DNA of 64,000 nucleotides from Clostridia bacterium. GTDB taxonomy: Bacteria; Bacillota; Clostridia; Lachnospirales; Anaerotignaceae. A program made the position numbers and the translations under genes. The DNA is taken from the NCBI GenBank assembly GCA_022651385.1, contig JALCQR010000003.1, positions 182,967 to 246,966 on the forward strand, written 5' to 3'. The notes beneath the pieces are model-generated. The model saw nothing but the letters and a program-made list of their open reading frames with translations. It ran no database searches and was not told where the DNA came from. This document shows positions 5,147 through 63,772 of this stretch, piece after piece (within the stretch, counting starts at the first letter, position 1; every line of letters starts with the position of its first letter).

Positions 5147-7486
5147 TTAGTATTCAGCATATATTCTGTATACTTTTCCCTCATAAAATCTAAATTCCAG
5201 TTTATAATCACAGCCGTCATAATACCAGCCTGAATATAAATCTTTTATAGTATAGTCTCTGTCATTTCCGTTTATCCTTATTACAAGTTTTTTGTCACTG
5301 TTGTCCTCATCAATTAAATCATATGTTGACTCGTAATTATTGCCTATAATAGAAATTTTATTATTTTGAATATTAGACACAGTTCCTTTTACAGACTTAA
5401 GTTCAGCAGATATTATAATTGCCTTGTCATCTTTGGTCTTTACAACTGCTTTAAAAACTTCTCCGTTTGCCGCCCTTCTATAAAAATCGTATGCAGCAGC
5501 ACTTTCTCCGTCAATTGTAATTTCAGCCGAGCTTCCATATGAAATGTCATTTCCGTCAACTTCAAAATCAGAGGACGTAATATTCTCAAGCGTACCGGAA
5601 TATGAGTTATAATCACTGTCGTCATATATAATTATTCTTTTTACCTCATCGCCGCTAATCTCAAGTTTAACTTCCGTCTTATCCGGAATATACATATCTT
5701 CAAGAGTTGAAAGGTCGTCATCAGAGCTGTCGTCTGTATAATCAATGTCAACATCACTTCTCATGTAATATTTTATTGTTTTTCCTGATTCAGTAGTTAT
5801 AGTTATGTAATCATCGGTCAGTTTTGATATAACGCCTGCGGTGTCGTCATCAAGTTCAGCCTCTATTTTTGTAACTTTCCCTTTGCTGTTAAGATAAATT
5901 TTAAGTGAAAGAGTATCGCCTCTGTCAACAAGGCTTTCCAATTTGCCCAACGAAGACACATCATCCTGATAAATTACATAAGGTGTACCTGCCAACTGAT
6001 ACGCTTTTGATGTCCCGTCCGGAAAAGCAAGTGATACTTTTTCGTCTGATATTTTTTTTGATGAACCGCTTACACTTCCCCCATCTGTAGGAATATCGGC
6101 GTCAAGCTCAGTTACTTCAACGCTGTCATTAAGCTTTGCCGTAATCTCGATTTCATCATATTTGTCAAGGTAGTCACTTAAATCGGAATATTTTGCCGAT
6201 TCACCCTCAAATTTCATTTCATAATTATATGCAAAATCAAAATCTTTTTCGTAACTGCTATAGCATTTTACTGATATGCCGTATTTGTCAATATCTGTAA
6301 GTGTGCCCTTTACCGTATCTTTATCACCTTTAACAACAACAGAATCGGCCATTCCGCTTTTAAGCCCAACTGTAACATTAAGTGTGTTGCCGTTTTCTAT
6401 GCTTCTCAGCACCTCCCGTACACTTGAAAGTTTGCCGTTAAAAGTTATTACAGCATTTGAATTAAGATTATATATATCGGTCGCACCTGAAGAAAGGTCA
6501 ACAACAATGTTTGAAGATGAAATATTATTTATTGTGCCTTTAACCTCACCTGCAGAATTTTGAGCTGAATTGCTGTTTAACATTGATACTCTTATAATCT
6601 CGCTGTCATCATACGTGATATTAACTTTATCTCCAGTTGTAATATCCATAAAGTCGGCGCTGCTGCCGTTATAGGTTGTGGCTGTGCTGCTGCCGCCTTT
6701 AAATGTTTTAATATTTCCGTTTGAGTCTTTAACCTTTAAGCTTTTGTTGTCACCGTCAATTTCAGTTTCAGTAACTGTACCTTCAAATGTACTTGTAGCA
6801 ACAGAATCGGCCCCGCCGTTTATTACCGAATATGTTTTAAACACAACAACGGCCATCTCTGCCCTGTTTATGTATGCCGAAGGATTAAAGTTTGCGTTGT
6901 TGTCACCTACTAAAATATTAAGTTTAGACAGCAGATTAACATATTTTTTTGCGTCGTCGCTTATTAAATTATCATCATTGAATGTTACACTGCTGCCGCT
7001 GCCCGTGTCATAGACTTTAGAGAGAGCCTTACCGAAAATCACAGCCACACCCTCTCTTGTGGCATATACACTGTTATTATTTTTATCCACATATCCTGAC
7101 AATTCAGATATAGAAACCAGTTTGTTTTCAAGTGCGTAAGCCGTCGACTCGTATGCCCATAACGGTACATCATACCCCATTAAAACAGTAGCCCATTTTT
7201 CAGTAACAGCCTTTGACTTTACAGCTTTTTTTTCTTTTAGAAGAATATTGTATGCAAGCTGAATAGTTTCAAAGTATGTAACTTTATCTCTTGCTCTGAA
7301 AAGATTTGTGCCATCGCCGTTATCCTCGCCTATCATAAGCCCAAGGTCCGCAACTTCGGCTATGTACGTCTTTGCGCCTTCCCAAGGCACATTGTTTTCG
7401 TCAGAAAAACGCACTGAAGCCAAAGAAGATGAAGCAGTGGCAATAATAATCGCTGCCGCAATAACCAGTGTTGCTTTCTTCTTCAT
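5147..7486 (-). CDS. S-layer homology (SLH) domain surface protein with repeated beta-rich modules
   Basis: A 779-residue exported protein. A signal peptide (MKKKATLVIAAAIIIATASSS) is followed by about three SLH domains within residues 25-220. The first has WEGAKTYIAEVADLGLM and the last has FNPSAYINRAEMAVVVFKTY; these anchor proteins to secondary cell-wall polymer. The remainder is built of repeated modules of about 70-80 residues with the pattern KGTLxxI...I.V...Y....L..GD.V, rich in Asp and Ser. I chose the ATG at 7486 because AAGGAGG is 7 bases upstream; the longer frame has none. It is probably a cell-surface structural protein. Ligand and role are unknown. Confidence 0.85.
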   Translation of the reverse strand: MKKKATLVIAAAIIIATASSSLASVRFSDENNVPWEGAKTYIAEVADLGLMIGEDNGDGTNLFRARDKVTYFETIQLAYNILLKEKKAVKSKAVTEKWATVLMGYDVPLWAYESTAYALENKLVSISELSGYVDKNNNSVYATREGVAVIFGKALSKVYDTGSGSSVTFNDDNLISDDAKKYVNLLSKLNILVGDNNANFNPSAYINRAEMAVVVFKTYSVINGGADSVATSTFEGTVTETEIDGDNKSLKVKDSNGNIKTFKGGSSTATTYNGSSADFMDITTGDKVNITYDDSEIIRVSMLNSNSAQNSAGEVKGTINNISSSNIVVDLSSGATDIYNLNSNAVITFNGKLSSVREVLRSIENGNTLNVTVGLKSGMADSVVVKGDKDTVKGTLTDIDKYGISVKCYSSYEKDFDFAYNYEMKFEGESAKYSDLSDYLDKYDEIEITAKLNDSVEVTELDADIPTDGGSVSGSSKKISDEKVSLAFPDGTSKAYQLAGTPYVIYQDDVSSLGKLESLVDRGDTLSLKIYLNSKGKVTKIEAELDDDTAGVISKLTDDYITITTESGKTIKYYMRSDVDIDYTDDSSDDDLSTLEDMYIPDKTEVKLEISGDEVKRIIIYDDSDYNSYSGTLENITSSDFEVDGNDISYGSSAEITIDGESAAAYDFYRRAANGEVFKAVVKTKDDKAIIISAELKSVKGTVSNIQNNKISIIGNNYESTYDLIDEDNSDKKLVIRINGNDRDYTIKDLYSGWYYDGCDYKLEFRFYEGKVYRIYAEY

Positions 7487-8031: not shown

Positions 8032-8287
8032 ATCATTCAATTTTGAAAAGACAAATGTATACGACAAAATGACAATGACAAAAACTAAGCCTTTGAGACT
8101 GTTAAGAGAGACAGCGGTTGGTGTGAGCTGTTCAGCGTAGATGGTGTTCCATTTTTGTAGTCGCCGGTGATAAATCGGAAGGGAAAGCCCTTTAAAGCTT
8201 AAATGAGCGGCTTTTATTTTAAAAGCAATTCGGGTGGCACCACGGTTATTTCGTCCCAGATTATTATTATCTGGGGCGTTTTTTTAT
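8032..8287 (+). ncRNA. T-box leader, serine (UCC specifier)
   Basis: A tRNA-sensing riboswitch that lets transcription into serC-serA proceed when uncharged tRNA-Ser binds. Stem I carries AAGAGAG (8104-8110) and GGTTGGTGTGAGC. The antiterminator T-box GGGTGGCACCACGG lies at about 8232-8245. The terminator pairs CGTCCCAGAT with ATCTGGGGCG before a T-run (8252-8287). Aligning stem I with the leucine and threonine T-boxes elsewhere in this window places TCC (8148-8150, followed by a purine) in the specifier position, a serine codon that fits the downstream genes. The exact 5' end is inferred from the promoter. Confidence 0.9.
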
Positions 8288-8348: not shown

Positions 8349-9437
8349 ATGGAAAGAGTTTATAATTTCTCGGCAGGACCTTCAATGCTGCCTCTTGAGG
8401 TACTTGAACAGGCTCAAAAAGAATTTGTTAATTATAAGAACACAGGGATGTCAGTTATGGAAATGAGTCACCGCTCAAAAGATTTTGAAGATATTATTTT
8501 TAAAGCTGAAGATGATTTAAGAGACCTTATGGCCATTCCTGATAATTATTCCGTTCTGTTTCTTCAGGGCGGAGGCTCAACACAGTTTGCAATGATTCCG
8601 CTTAATCTTATGAACAAAAATCATAAGGCCGACTATGTTAAAACAGGCCAGTGGTCGAAAAAAGCAATTGCTGAAGCTAAAAGGTACGGCAATGTAAATG
8701 TTGTTGCTTCATCAGAGGACAAAACATTCACATATATACCAAAGCTTGACCCGGCTAAATTTGATAAAGACGCTGATTATTTTTATATGACTTTAAACAA
8801 CACAATTTACGGCACACATATTCCGGACAATATGATTCCGGACACAGGGAATGTACCGAGAGTAGGAGACATGAGCTCAAATATACTTGCAGAAAGATAT
8901 GACGTTTCAAAATTCGGCCTTATATTTGCCGGAGCTCAGAAAAACCTTGGCCCTGCCGGGGTAACAATTGCCATTGTCAGAAAAGACCTTATGGGAAATG
9001 CAATGGATTTCACTCCTACAATGCTCAGATATGACACCCATGCCGAAAAGCGTTCGCTTTACAATACACCGCCGACATATTCAATTTATTTTGCAGGCCT
9101 TGTGTTCCAGTGGGTAAAGAAAATGGGCGGCATTGACGCAATGCAGAAAATAAATGAAGAAAAAGCAGCTATTGTTTACAAATTCCTTGATGAATCCGAC
9201 TTTTTCAAAGGAACGGTAGTACCTGAAAACCGCTCGCTTATGAACGCACCGTTTGTTCTTCCTACAGAGGAACTTAACGCAAAATTTATTGCCGAGGCAA
9301 AGGCAAAAGGATTTGTAAATTTAAAAGGCCACAGAACAGTAGGCGGCATGAGAGCATCAATGTATAACGCAATGCCAATTGAAGGCGTTAAAAAACTTGT
9401 GGAATTTATGAAAAAATTCGAAACGGAAAACAAATAA
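8349..9437 (+). CDS. serC: Phosphoserine aminotransferase
   Basis: PLP enzyme converting 3-phosphohydroxypyruvate and glutamate to phosphoserine, the second step of serine synthesis. At 362 residues it has the family's length. The N-terminus ([11 protein letters not shown]) is characteristic, the PLP lysine is K198 in [12 protein letters not shown], and LQGGGSTQF forms part of the cofactor site. AAGGAGG precedes the ATG. It is first in an operon with serA, 23 bases away, and is controlled by the serine T-box. No serB is present in the window. Confidence 0.97.
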
Positions 9438-9460
9438 ATCATAATTTAAGGAGAGTAAAA

Positions 9461-10633
9461 ATGTATAATATTTTGACATTAAACGCAATATCACCAAAGG
9501 GACTTAATAAACTCCCATCCGATGAGTTTTGCATTTCAGATAAAAGCGAAAATCCAGACGGCATAATAGTAAGAAGTGCTGACATGCACTCATATGAATT
9601 ACCTAAAACACTTCTTGCAATAGCAAGAGCCGGTGCCGGAACAAACAATATTCCTTCTGACAAATGCGCCGAAAAGGGTGTCGTAGTATTTAACACACCC
9701 GGAGCAAACGCAAACGCCGTTAAAGAACTTGTAATATGCGGACTTCTTCTTTCATCAAGAAAAATTGTTGAAGCCTATGAATGGACAAAAACATTAAAAG
9801 GCCAGCCTGATATGTCAAAACTTGTGGAAGCCGGCAAAAAGAAGTTTGCCGGTCCTGAAATACTCGGCAAAAAACTTGGTGTTCTCGGTCTCGGAGCCGT
9901 AGGCGTACAGGTAGCAAATGCCGCTGTGGCACTCGGAATGAAGGTAGTAGGTTATGACCCTTTCCTTTCTTTAAGCAACGCTTGGCATATTTCATGCGAG
10001 GTTTGTCTTGCAACTACAGTTGAAAAAGTATTTGAAGAATGTGATTATGTTACAATACATATCCCTCAAAATCCTTCAACAATTGGAATGTTTAATAAGG
10101 AAGTTTTATCCCATGCCAAAAAGGGCTGCCGTCTTCTTAATTTTTCAAGAGGCGGTCTTGTAGTTGACGACGATATCAAAGCCGCTCTTGAGGACGGAAC
10201 CCTTGCTAAATATGTAACCGACTTTGCAAGCGAAACCCTTCTCGGTCTTGAAAATGTAATAGCTTTGCCTCATTTGGGCGCTTCGACACCGGAGTCTGAG
10301 GAAAACTGTGCCGTAATGGCCGCTCTTGAGGTAAGCGATTTCTTAAAATACGGAAACATTAAAAATTCAGTTAATTACCCTAACTGCGAAGCTCCATACA
10401 CAGGCAAGGCAAGAGTCACAATAGCACATAAAAATATACCTAATATGGTAGGTTCAATAACAAGTGTATTTGCAAAATATAATTTGAACATTGATAACAT
10501 GATAAATAAAAGCAAAGGAAACTGGGCATATACAATACTTGACCTTGACACACTTGATGGGAAAAACAGTATAGCAAATGAGCTCGGCAAATTAAACGGC
10601 GTTGTTAAAGCAAGAATTGTAAGAGAAAATTAA
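9461..10633 (+). CDS. serA: D-3-phosphoglycerate dehydrogenase (short form with ACT domain)
   Basis: Oxidises 3-phosphoglycerate to 3-phosphohydroxypyruvate, the committed step of serine synthesis. At 390 residues this is the short type. A substrate domain is followed by the Rossmann motif GLGAVG at 143-148, the catalytic Arg in NFSRGGLVVDD near 229 and the catalytic His in ALPHLGAST near 278. A single C-terminal ACT domain starts near residue 318 and is presumably where serine feedback acts. The order serC-serA, reversed from pathway order, is common in Clostridia. Confidence 0.96.
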   Translation: MYNILTLNAISPKGLNKLPSDEFCISDKSENPDGIIVRSADMHSYELPKTLLAIARAGAGTNNIPSDKCAEKGVVVFNTPGANANAVKELVICGLLLSSRKIVEAYEWTKTLKGQPDMSKLVEAGKKKFAGPEILGKKLGVLGLGAVGVQVANAAVALGMKVVGYDPFLSLSNAWHISCEVCLATTVEKVFEECDYVTIHIPQNPSTIGMFNKEVLSHAKKGCRLLNFSRGGLVVDDDIKAALEDGTLAKYVTDFASETLLGLENVIALPHLGASTPESEENCAVMAALEVSDFLKYGNIKNSVNYPNCEAPYTGKARVTIAHKNIPNMVGSITSVFAKYNLNIDNMINKSKGNWAYTILDLDTLDGKNSIANELGKLNGVVKARIVREN

Positions 10634-17369: not shown

Positions 17370-17393
17370 AGCTCAGCACCTCCTAAAAATAAT

Positions 17394-17520
17394 AAAAAAA
17401 AGTGGATAGACAGACTATCCACATAAAACGCATTTACATTCTTGAAAAAATCAAGAAACCGTATTAACCAAGACCGCCTTATGCGGCAAGGTGAGAAGTG
17501 GATACTTCTTCTTTGTTACC
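17394..17520 (-). promoter_or_regulatory. L20-type leader with attenuator upstream of infC
   Basis: A terminator hairpin (GTGGATAG, 17422-17415, pairing with CTATCCAC, 17409-17402, then seven T on the minus strand) precedes infC. An upstream copy of the 3' arm, TATCCACTT (17504-17496), can pair instead with GTGGATAG and form an antiterminator. Mutually exclusive folding of this kind is how the Firmicute L20 leader works; L20 binding would favour termination. Confidence 0.8.
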
Positions 17521-57997: not shown

Positions 57998-58300
57998 AAT
58001 AAAAAAAGCCTTCGTCTTCTGATTAAGAAGACGAAGGCTTGTAAGCGTCCGCGGTACCACTTCAATTTATCCCAAATGGGAACTCTGTCAGATACAGGCA
58101 ATTAAGCCGATATCCTGTCACTATAACGGTTGACGTCCGGTTTAACCTATTCCGCTAAGCGTTTTCAGCAAACCACTCCAAGGCGAGTTCAATTTTTATT
58201 ACCTGATATCTCACACCAAACGATATCTCTCTGAAAGGATTTAAAAAATCTACTATTCCTCATCACAGTGTTGTAAAAGCTAATATAATTTTGTTTGATG
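57998..58300 (-). ncRNA. T-box leader, leucine (CUC specifier)
   Basis: Minus-strand tRNA-sensing leader of leuACDB. Stem I has CAGAGAGATATCG and TTTGGTGTGAG, and GAACTCG contains the specifier CTC (58187-58185), a leucine codon. The T-box motif reads GTGGTACCGCGGA (about 58058-58046). The terminator is a 15-pair stem AGCCTTCGTCTTCT... (58040-58006) followed by seven T. Binding of uncharged tRNA-Leu would favour antitermination. Confidence 0.93.
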
Positions 58301-60244: not shown

Positions 60245-60600
60245 CAACAATCTTATTCTAAACATATTGATAGAAAATGTCAATAGAAAACTGTTATTTG
60301 TTTAAAAAATGCAAGTCAAAAGAGCATGTGTGTTATAAATAAAAAAGGAATTCCGGCAGCAGGCTAATTGTACCACGCTGGGATTCCTTTTTTGAATATC
60401 CATGTTTTCAATCACACACTTTCTCGGAAGGTTAAGCTTACATGCATCAATTAACGGGCTTATCACTCACCGCTTGCCCCGTGAATATAATGTAATTAAA
60501 TCAACATTTATTCCGAACTTCATTATGATCGCTGCAAGATAAGGCATGAGGCTGTAGCTTTCGTAAAAGTCCGAGATTCATTTTATTAGGAGAAAAATAT
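60245..60600. other. Upstream region of the beta-helix gene
   Basis: About 355 bases. It contains a strong hairpin at 60340-60396 and, beyond it, about 200 bases of less AT-rich sequence with a CGGGC...GCCCCG pairing near 60457-60483. I could not identify a promoter or a known RNA family. No ORF with a ribosome binding site is present. Confidence 0.5.
60340..60396. terminator. Hairpin with A and T tracts, terminator-like
   Basis: AAAAAAGGAATTCC pairs with GGGATTCCTTTTTT, extended by GCAGC/GCTGG, around a 20-base loop. It would stop transcription entering from either side. Confidence 0.7.
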
Positions 60601-63576
60601 ATGGCAGCGATTCAAGTAAAAACCGATTACCCGACTATCCAGTCAGCTGTTGATGCAGCATCTCCCGGGGATGAAATCCTTGTGGAAGACGGCACTTACC
60701 ATGAACAGGTGACGGTAAACAAAAGTTATATCAAAATCATTGGCGGAGAAAAAACGATTCTCGATGGGAAAATGAATCTCGACACCGGCGTTATTCTCAA
60801 TAACACAAGCGGTGTGGAAATCAAATCCCTTATCATAAAAAATTACAAAAGCGACGGGGTGGATATCTTAGGAAGCGGAAATTCTAACAGCATTTTCAAA
60901 ACTCATTTTTTAAACATCAATTATTACGGCGTTATGCTGGACTCTTCTACTTCAAGCGATAGAATCGTCGGATGCAGCATAAGCGGTGCGTATTACGGTG
61001 TCTATGACTCAGGCAGCTATCTTGTGATGAAAGACTGTGAAACCTCGTACTGCTTTAGAGGTTTCTATTCCACCGATGATTCAAATAACGCAAATATTAT
61101 CAATTGTATTATCAATTATAACAACGGCGGAATCTATGTAAACGGTATCGGCACTCATATCATCAAAAACAATATACTCGGAGCTGTTGACACAGGCATC
61201 TATGCACGTTCAAGTTGTTTCATTGAGGAAAATGTTATAAAAGACACTATTTATAATGACGGAATTTATCTCTCAGCAGCAAACAGCACCATCAAAGGAA
61301 ATCACGTGTGTTCAAACGGGCAAAATGGCATTTATGTTACCTCAAGAAATAATTCGGTAATCAACAATGAGGTAAACGATAATGCGGGCATCGGCATTCT
61401 TATTGTGTCTTACGGGTGTATTATCACTGGCAACTCAGCCTGCGGAAACGGAAGATATGACATTGCAAGAAAAATGTCAGATAATATTATACAGGATAAT
61501 GTCTGCAATAAATGTCTGCCGCCATGGATTTGCAGCAGCGGGACATCTGAAGGACAAGAAGATATGGTCATAAATCAGGAATTCTACTCAGCTGACATCA
61601 AAGTCCCTGAAGATTACCCAACCATTCAGGCTGCTGTTGATGCTGCCGTTTCGGGAGATATTATTTTTGTGGAAAGCGGCGTCTACAATGAACAGATTAC
61701 TATAAAAAAGGACTTTATCAAAATCATAGGCGGTAAAAAAGCTGTCTTAAACGGGGAAATGCGGCTCGACACCGGATTTATACTCAGTGACACCGTAGGT
61801 ACAGAGATTAAATCCTTTACCATCAAAAACTTCAGAATTGACGGCATTGACATTTTGGGCAACAGCAAAAGCAACGTCATTGAAGATACACAAATACTGG
61901 ATATAAACTATTATGGCATTTCTGTTGATACCTCTTCAGAAAACAACCAGCTTGCCTACTGCACAATAGATGGCAACTATGTAGGAATTGTAGACCGCAG
62001 CAACGGCCTGCGTATAGACAAAAGCAGTATTTCCTACAATGGACAATTCGGCGTCTACTGCACCGGCAACAATATGCGGATTAGCCAAAGCACGGTCCAA
62101 GGCAGCCTTATTGACACAGGCATTGAATGTATAGGAAGCGGTATTCAAATATCCGGATGCAAAGTTTCTCAAAATGGTTACTGTGGCATCTATATCAATG
62201 ACAGCAGCACCGTCAAAGAAAACGAGATATCCGAAAATGCATCTCACGGCCTTGTGTTAATCAGCTCGAATACCGCAAAAAATAATCGCATCTTGTCAAA
62301 TAAAGGTTACGGCATGTTTGCTTATGATAACAATTCCGTCATTGGCAATATCGTAAAAGGCAATGAATATACCGGAATAATTTTTTCAAATGATAATATC
62401 GTCGAGGATAATACTGCCCAAGAAAACAAGCCGTATGACATGGTTAGAATTATCTCGAATAACACAATCAGAAACAATACTTGCGGCAAATGCCTGCCGC
62501 CGTGGATTTGCGGAGAACAAAGCGAAAGCATGAAGGATAAGGAAATACCGCAGGATTCTGACGATGAAAATATTCTGGCAACAATTAATGTCCCGGCAGA
62601 TTATCCAACCATCCAGGCTGCTGTGGATGCTGCTTTTTCAGGAGATATTATTCTGGTTGAAAACGGCGTATACCATGAGCAGTTGACCATCAATAAGGGC
62701 TTTATTAAAATTATCGGCAAAAATAAAACGGTTCTTGACGGAGAGATGAAACTTGACAGCGGCTTTACACTCGACAATGCCGACGGTGTTGAAATTAGGT
62801 CATTTATAATTGAAAATTTTGCACTCTACGGAATCAATATTCTTGCAAGCAGCGGGGATACCATTTCAAAAACACGCATCTTGGACAATTACAATAACAT
62901 CTACTTAGAGGACACTGCCACAAACTGCGTAATCACAGACAGCATCGTTATGGGCGGAGGAATGGGAGGCATTACTAATTCAGGCAACAATATGCGTATT
63001 GAAAGATGCCAAATCTCGTATAACGGCAGCACAGGAGTCTATTTACGTGACTGCAATTTTTATGTCGGTCAAAGTGACATCAGCAACAACTTCGGTAATG
63101 GAATCAACTTTTATATTTCCGATTACAGCGCATGTATCATAGGCAATAAGCTATATGAAAATCGGAATCCGGCTTTGATTGCTAACGGCAGCTGCCTAAT
63201 CAAGGGCAACGAAATATGCAATACTTTTTCCAGCGCAGTTGGTGCCCTGACCAATAACTGTATTGTAGAGGAGAACCTTATTTGCTCAAACAAACAAGAC
63301 GGCATCATTATGAGGAACGGTTCCTCTGCTATCCGAAACAAAGTGCGTGATAACGGAAGATACGGCATCGCCGTCGAACAGGGCAATTTTGTTGAGGGCA
63401 ACACAGTCATGGGCAACAAATACTACGATATTAACAGAACATGGGCAAACAGTATCATTAAAAACAATATTTGCGTCAAAAGTTCGCCTCCATGGCTTTG
63501 CAAAGAATGCTGTCCGTCACCGGAAACAGACTTGAAAAATGAAGATTTAAACAAGGAGGAACAATATGAGAATTAG
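60601..63576 (+). CDS. Triplicated right-handed beta-helix repeat protein
   Basis: 991 residues made of three homologous units of about 330 residues, starting near residues 4, 332 and 662. Each opens with a D-Y-P-T-I-Q-(S/A)-A-V-D-A-A-x-x-G-D motif and the segment IKIIGG.K..L.G.M.LD, as in NosD/pectate-lyase-type beta helices. Many short N-N/G-rich rungs follow (NSVINNEVNDNAGIGI type). Each unit closes with a Cys/Pro/Trp motif: CNKCLPPWIC, CGKCLPPWIC, CVKSSPPWLC. There is no signal peptide or membrane segment. AGGAG precedes the ATG. ATC, CTC and TTC codons are more common than in neighbouring genes, suggesting transfer. Function unknown; it could be a spore-surface, phage-like or secreted-by-other-route protein. 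Confidence 0.8.
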   Translation: MAAIQVKTDYPTIQSAVDAASPGDEILVEDGTYHEQVTVNKSYIKIIGGEKTILDGKMNLDTGVILNNTSGVEIKSLIIKNYKSDGVDILGSGNSNSIFKTHFLNINYYGVMLDSSTSSDRIVGCSISGAYYGVYDSGSYLVMKDCETSYCFRGFYSTDDSNNANIINCIINYNNGGIYVNGIGTHIIKNNILGAVDTGIYARSSCFIEENVIKDTIYNDGIYLSAANSTIKGNHVCSNGQNGIYVTSRNNSVINNEVNDNAGIGILIVSYGCIITGNSACGNGRYDIARKMSDNIIQDNVCNKCLPPWICSSGTSEGQEDMVINQEFYSADIKVPEDYPTIQAAVDAAVSGDIIFVESGVYNEQITIKKDFIKIIGGKKAVLNGEMRLDTGFILSDTVGTEIKSFTIKNFRIDGIDILGNSKSNVIEDTQILDINYYGISVDTSSENNQLAYCTIDGNYVGIVDRSNGLRIDKSSISYNGQFGVYCTGNNMRISQSTVQGSLIDTGIECIGSGIQISGCKVSQNGYCGIYINDSSTVKENEISENASHGLVLISSNTAKNNRILSNKGYGMFAYDNNSVIGNIVKGNEYTGIIFSNDNIVEDNTAQENKPYDMVRIISNNTIRNNTCGKCLPPWICGEQSESMKDKEIPQDSDDENILATINVPADYPTIQAAVDAAFSGDIILVENGVYHEQLTINKGFIKIIGKNKTVLDGEMKLDSGFTLDNADGVEIRSFIIENFALYGINILASSGDTISKTRILDNYNNIYLEDTATNCVITDSIVMGGGMGGITNSGNNMRIERCQISYNGSTGVYLRDCNFYVGQSDISNNFGNGINFYISDYSACIIGNKLYENRNPALIANGSCLIKGNEICNTFSSAVGALTNNCIVEENLICSNKQDGIIMRNGSSAIRNKVRDNGRYGIAVEQGNFVEGNTVMGNKYYDINRTWANSIIKNNICVKSSPPWLCKECCPSPETDLKNEDLNKEEQYEN

Positions 63577-63772
63577 CAATATTGAAATTTTAAAGAGGGA
63601 TTTGGCCCTTCAAAAAAAGAAACTGGAAGACCTTAAAACCTGGGGAAGCGTGAGTATTCTAATCGAATCCCAGACCGCCCTTGTCGACAAGCTCGAAAAA
63701 CAGCTTGAAACAATCCAAGACAATAATAATTCTGATAATCCCGGACTTGATACAGTTGTTTCAAATTTATAA
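63566..63772 (+). CDS. Small coiled-coil protein overlapping the beta-helix gene
   Basis: 68 residues. A heptad-like helical pattern (IEILKRDLALQKKKLEDLK, then TALVDKLEKQLETIQ) is followed by an Asn/Asp/Ser-rich tail. Its ATG lies 11 bases inside the end of the beta-helix gene, with AAGGAGG properly spaced, so the two are translationally coupled and probably act together. I do not recognise a family. Confidence 0.65.
   Translation: MRISNIEILKRDLALQKKKLEDLKTWGSVSILIESQTALVDKLEKQLETIQDNNNSDNPGLDTVVSNL

Follow-up and report, generated by a model that had tools for sequence, protein, structure and literature searches.

Mannuronan C-5 epimerases of the AlgE and AlgG types carry a DPH(D/E) motif with a conserved histidine as their catalytic signature. 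Coat and exosporium proteins of spores are usually made in the mother cell and are deposited without secretion. DUF4183 proteins form F-type endospore appendages (F-ENA), as observed by cryo-EM (PMC11952670), and a clostridial anchor protein that combines DUF4183 with CsxA-like domains is on record (PMC11952670). Here, we analysed a two-gene locus from a Clostridia bacterium, located within a 64,000-nucleotide stretch of DNA hereafter called the window. The first gene encodes a leaderless protein of 991 residues made of three beta-helix units; the second encodes a 68-residue partner. The fold of the large protein recalls the epimerases, and single-unit relatives in three other genomes are found next to F-ENA genes.

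Organization of the locus

The three units of the 991-residue protein are joined by short linkers, and the third is followed by a C-terminal tail (Table 1). Over 304 aligned positions, the units are 45%, 41% and 44% identical in pairwise comparison. Each unit matches the three-unit profile with E<1e-158, the units themselves being part of the model, and the Pfam matches of the whole protein are Beta_helix (PF13229, 3.3e-48), NosD (PF05048, 9.8e-34) and, weakly, Pectinesterase. The per-unit scores and the Beta_helix match exclude chance. Residues invariant between units belong to the N-terminal cap region, to the ladder Asn and Gly positions and to a Cys cap that closes each unit with the pattern C-x2-[CS]-x-PPW[IL]-C. 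The protein contains 31 cysteines, the highest Cys content (3.1%) among the 41 window genes compared. Of these, only the first and last cap cysteines recur in all three units.

A preliminary description of this locus had proposed a threefold beta-helix repeat with a terminal Cys motif, a partner ORF overlapping by 11 bases, deviant codon use and the absence of an export signal. All four observations hold. The units are ca 308 residues long and the third cap has diverged to CVKSSPPWLC; the overlap follows from the coordinates 63566 and 63576. Among the 41 window genes, this one ranks first in codon deviation (GC3 0.454 versus a median of 0.333), which suggests lateral arrival of the gene. No signal peptide is visible in the protein sequence.

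Table 1 Features of the two-gene locus in the window
Feature	Position	Strand	Evidence or remark
991-aa leaderless protein, three beta-helix units	60601..63576	+	ATG start; Pfam PF13229 3.3e-48
Unit 1, 310 aa	60604..61533	+	Unit alignment; 127 bits full-length vs relatives' profile built without the window protein
Cys cap 1, CNKCLPPWIC	61504..61533	+	Closes unit 1
Linker 1, 19 residues	61534..61590	+	Between units 1 and 2
Unit 2, 307 aa, predicted right-handed beta-helix	61591..62511	+	Mean pLDDT 89.5, pTM 0.89; 113 bits vs relatives' profile
Cys cap 2, CGKCLPPWIC	62482..62511	+	Closes unit 2
Linker 2, acidic, 22 residues	62512..62577	+	Between units 2 and 3
Unit 3, 308 aa	62578..63501	+	Unit alignment; 99 bits vs relatives' profile
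Cys cap 3, CVKSSPPWLC, Ser in place of second Cys	63472..63501	+	Closes unit 3
C-terminal tail KECCPSPETDLKNEDLNKEEQYEN, acidic, contains Cys	63502..63573	+	After cap 3 of the 991-aa protein
68-aa partner ORF, predicted helical hairpin	63566..63772	+	11 bp overlap with upstream large ORF
AGGAG, ribosome-binding site of large ORF	60588..60592	+	Sequence upstream of ATG
AAGGAGG, ribosome-binding site of small ORF, inside large ORF	63553..63559	+	Sequence

Amino-acid and housekeeping genes surround the locus, and no spore genes are near. Between a tRNA-Pro gene and the beta-helix gene, an inverted repeat (AAAAAAGGAATTCC...GGGATTCCTTTTTT, window positions 60340-60396) is likely a terminator. Integration at the tRNA-Pro gene was considered and rejected: the 3' end of this gene points away from the ORF and the arrangement is therefore not the usual integration scar. 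Elsewhere in the window, Rfam identifies two T-box leaders and an L20 leader, at 8066-8261 (+), 58024-58275 (-) and 17388-17519 (-). Past the downstream end of the window, three TerD-like genes stand in a row with one TelA-like gene (L005, 14446-17423), an arrangement that, by eye, resembles a tellurite or stress operon.

The deviant codon use would also fit an adhesin or tailspike-like remnant that arrived laterally, perhaps from a phage, and serves no function in the host. The fold is common to many phage tailspikes, and a search of 35 genomes of the same taxonomic family found no relative of the window gene. Nevertheless, we regard such a remnant as very improbable: a tblastn search returned 0 matches among 50,697 phage records, no phage genes flank the locus, neither reading frame is broken, and distant genomes have kept the gene pair. 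The plasmid records searched gave only generic matches to the N-terminal part of the beta-helix.

Predicted folds and the enzyme question

Unit 2 was modeled with AlphaFold2 from an input of four sequences. The model, of high confidence, is a right-handed beta-helix throughout (Table 1). The closest solved folds are those of AlgE6, AlgE4 and AlgG (Z 31-32, rmsd 2.3-2.5), followed closely by phage tailspikes and NosD. A search of the PDB by sequence gave no match to the window protein. Assignment as a NosD copper-centre maturation protein was rejected, the TIGR04247 score of 104.5 bits falling short of the cut-off (300) and a signal peptide being absent.

The structural neighbours, together with the weak Pectinesterase matches, raise the possibility of a carbohydrate-active enzyme of the alginate epimerase or polysaccharide lyase type, triplicated for polymer binding. 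The preliminary description had pointed to a known enzyme family with a conserved active site as the finding that would speak against a novel protein. The search for one uncovered an epimerase-like fold, yet neither of its catalytic hallmarks: the DPH motif is absent from the 991 residues, and none of the six histidines is invariant between units. Sequence identity to the AlgE and AlgG folds is 14-17%, and what is kept between units is the N-terminal cap region, the ladder and the Cys cap. Moreover, the substrates of such enzymes are extracellular, whereas the protein lacks an export signal. Since neither the motif nor a histidine is preserved, the likeness in fold is uninformative about function. 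The enzyme reading is disfavoured, and we consider it improbable.

The 68-residue protein, modeled from its single sequence, is predicted with moderate confidence (mean pLDDT 75.9) to form a hairpin of two helices (residues 5-26 and 30-55). A fold search with this model found common helical hairpins only, with E about 1.

Single-unit relatives in spore-forming Firmicutes

A search of contigs with the window units returned mostly generic beta-helices from many phyla, which do not have the cap. Likewise, the three-unit profile retrieved only distant beta-helices from 392 genomes of the order. Among the order genomes there was one outlier, G219, with a leaderless single unit of 315 residues overlapped by a small helical ORF. 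The profile was extended with G219 and two other leaderless units, then searched against the class and the phylum. This revealed a family of leaderless single-unit beta-helix proteins of ca 330 residues (about 311-345) across spore-forming Firmicutes. Carriers are G716, G563 (two copies), G411, G731, G444, G879 (two tandem copies), G1058, G1126, G844 and G911; decayed or partial copies occur in G804 and G435. The proteins begin with MA[IV]I.V or a similar sequence and have no signal peptide. Together with its hairpin genes, this family is undescribed.

Tandem duplication is seen in G731 and G879, so that internal triplication in the window protein fits a habit of the family. The G731 locus (L192, 7024-9328) contains two tandem pairs of beta-helix and hairpin genes, the second beta-helix gene being split by a frameshift, and a ferritin-like gene is adjacent. 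In G804 (L196, 7904-9119), apparent sigG (6543-7316) and sigE (9380-10114) genes enclose a copy of the beta-helix module that carries a frameshift. An apparent thiamine-gene fragment accompanies this copy, which by eye looks like an insertion that has decayed within the cluster of sporulation sigma genes. This neighbourhood was set aside as evidence of a spore function, the copy being frameshifted and beside fragments.

How near to these relatives does the window protein stand? All three units align full-length (positions 1-330) with the relatives-only profile, with the scores given in Table 1; after removal of G911 from the profile they still score 107, 92 and 77 bits. The best generic beta-helix from outside the clostridial group reaches 66 bits, or 52 without G911. 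Two membrane-anchored clostridial beta-helices, encoded at L101 (G203) and L135 (G426), reach scores similar to those of the window units; the L101 protein, too, has a Cys-containing cap at its end (NRCGNSVGTNVDCGN). Identity between the window units and the family is 21-28%. In the tree, the window units form one group (support 96/88) and the family another (90/85); the units stand beside the family, not inside it, and the junction between the two groups is unsupported. Scores, tree and identities together lead us to read the window protein as a divergent, triplicated relative from the same clostridial cluster and, more strictly, as a candidate member of the family.

A shared cysteine cap

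Just after their last rung, most relatives end in C-x2-[C/H/N]-x6-C, usually as C-x2-C-x6-C, for example NIDKPCEPCESPSVVC or NLEEPCKPCELTFEDC. The first and last cap cysteines are kept in 10 of 12 full-length relatives. The middle one is lost in two of the twelve, and in G879 it is replaced as in unit 3 of the window protein. All three window units have the corresponding cap, C-x2-[C]-x(5,6)-C, after their last rung. Because the relatives share this ending and conserve its outer cysteines, the PPWIC ending is, as judged from the alignments, the window's variant of a wider family cap and not a stand-alone motif. In the preliminary description, no described family was known to end in this way. 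Within the databases and papers covered this still holds, but the ending itself is not unique to the window gene. Searched as an exact pattern in viral contigs, CLPPWIC gave 13 DNA matches, 0 of them within a beta-helix reading frame.

Metal binding or crosslinking had been suggested for the Cys motif. A metal site appears disfavoured, since the second cysteine is lost in unit 3 and in several relatives, leaving a pair of cysteines. Crosslinking through the cap cysteines is possible.

The small hairpin gene

Behind the beta-helix genes of ten relatives, overlapping them or within 25 bp, lie genes for helical hairpins of 57-65 residues. Their proteins align with one another, and none of them has a Pfam or NCBIfam match over cut-off. 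Against the profile of these hairpins, the 68-residue window protein scores 8.0 bits, a weak value that 7 of 1973 shuffled sequences also reached. Direct BLAST comparison with the G219 hairpin gave no alignment. Position and predicted fold agree with those of the relatives' hairpins; by position, the window partner is likely homologous to them, a relation that the sequence score does not prove.

Adjacency to endospore-appendage genes

The beta-helix gene is the immediate neighbour of DUF4183 genes in three genomes, G563, G444 and G1058. One of these neighbours encodes an F-ENA-like fibre subunit of ca 122 residues. The product of the other, ca 455 residues long, contains three DUF4183 domains behind an N-terminus that resembles spore-coat proteins (NF052457, below cut-off). 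In G563 and G1058, the shorter DUF4183 gene, the longer one and the beta-helix gene follow in this order on one strand, with the hairpin gene next in G1058. In G444, the beta-helix and hairpin pair faces the same two DUF4183 genes. As G563 and G444 belong to the same genus, the adjacency represents two independent lineages.

DUF4183 matches are found in 6 of 221 genomes of the class (five above cut-off) and in 3 of the 6 module carriers of the class. A rough hypergeometric estimate for this co-occurrence is 2e-4, with one genus partly double-counted. Four F-ENA loci (G397, G500, G527 and G731) have no adjacent beta-helix gene and the link between module and F-ENA is thus not obligatory. The window's genome has neither a DUF4183 gene nor a BMQ_0737-type gene, and Pfam finds no DUF4183 domain in the 991-residue protein. 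The spoIVA gene is present in 14 of 14 carrier genomes checked and in the window's genome. With spoIVA found in 281 of 391 genomes of the class, this association is weak when taken alone. Upstream of the window gene, the best sigma-E-like promoter score is equalled by 33% of random 300-nt windows, and the sigma-K and sigma-G consensus sequences score worse. A literature search on beta-helices with exosporium or spore found nothing relevant.

These observations bear on whether the protein could be a structural or scaffold protein of the cell interior with no spore link, for instance one nucleating an intracellular assembly together with its coiled-coil partner. The missing export signal and the distance of the window locus from spore genes would agree with this, and spore-surface genes adjoin the module in some carriers, not in all. 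On the other hand, endospore-appendage genes are adjacent in two lineages, carriers so far are all spoIVA-bearing genomes, and a Cys-capped design would be unusual in a reduced cytoplasm. We consider a purely intracellular role unlikely.

Discussion

On balance, we read the window pair as a divergent, triplicated relative of this two-gene module, one that probably supplies the outermost layer of the spore with a structural protein. A structural role at the spore surface, read from synteny only, is the most likely one. The preliminary description had guessed at a spore-coat or appendage protein. This idea gains from the leaderless, Cys-capped relatives, their small helical gene and the F-ENA adjacency in three genomes, and is tempered by the link not being obligatory.

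How might such a protein work? If it ends up on the spore, a protein with no signal peptide would be made in the mother cell. Each unit would be a rigid rod, and the window version would consist of three rods on flexible acidic linkers. A beta-helix usually rises by 0.48 nm per rung; with a dozen or so rungs, we estimate a rod length of roughly 5-6 nm per unit. The small hairpin protein, from a translationally coupled gene, may hold the rod at one end. Once the mother cell lyses and thiols oxidise, each rod could be locked into the assembly by Cys-Cys crosslinks at its cap. The rigid rod, the conserved outer cap cysteines and the coupled hairpin suggest end-to-end or lateral assembly of rods. 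A more specific version, which we put forward tentatively and hold to be doubtful, is that the pair forms an undescribed spore-surface fibre or spacer: hairpin-anchored, Cys-capped rods beside F-ENA in some Clostridia, with a three-rod stand-in here.

Most of the spore surface of anaerobic Clostridia has yet to be mapped, and F-type appendage loci have been recognised only recently. A conserved, leaderless beta-helix with a coupled hairpin gene beside F-ENA genes is a concrete candidate for a spore component. It suggests that some annotations as "NosD-like" may hide structural spore proteins and not copper proteins or enzymes.

Among known systems, mannuronan C-5 epimerases AlgE and AlgG provide the best structural match to unit 2, but their catalytic motif and conserved histidine have no counterpart in the window protein. 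NosD-like and other right-handed beta-helix proteins (PF13229, PF05048) share its fold and ladder repeats; the window protein differs from them by its lack of a signal peptide and of adjacent NosF and NosY genes, and by its Cys cap and hairpin partner. The Cys-rich clostridial exosporium proteins CsxA and CdeC (PMC7333573, PMC7677010) are found at the spore surface, the place proposed here for the window protein. The likeness is one of proposed role and Cys richness. Finally, compared with F-ENA loci, DUF4183 is missing from the window protein and genome, and several such loci have no beta-helix gene, but in G563, G444 and G1058 single-unit relatives stand beside the fibre and anchor-like genes.
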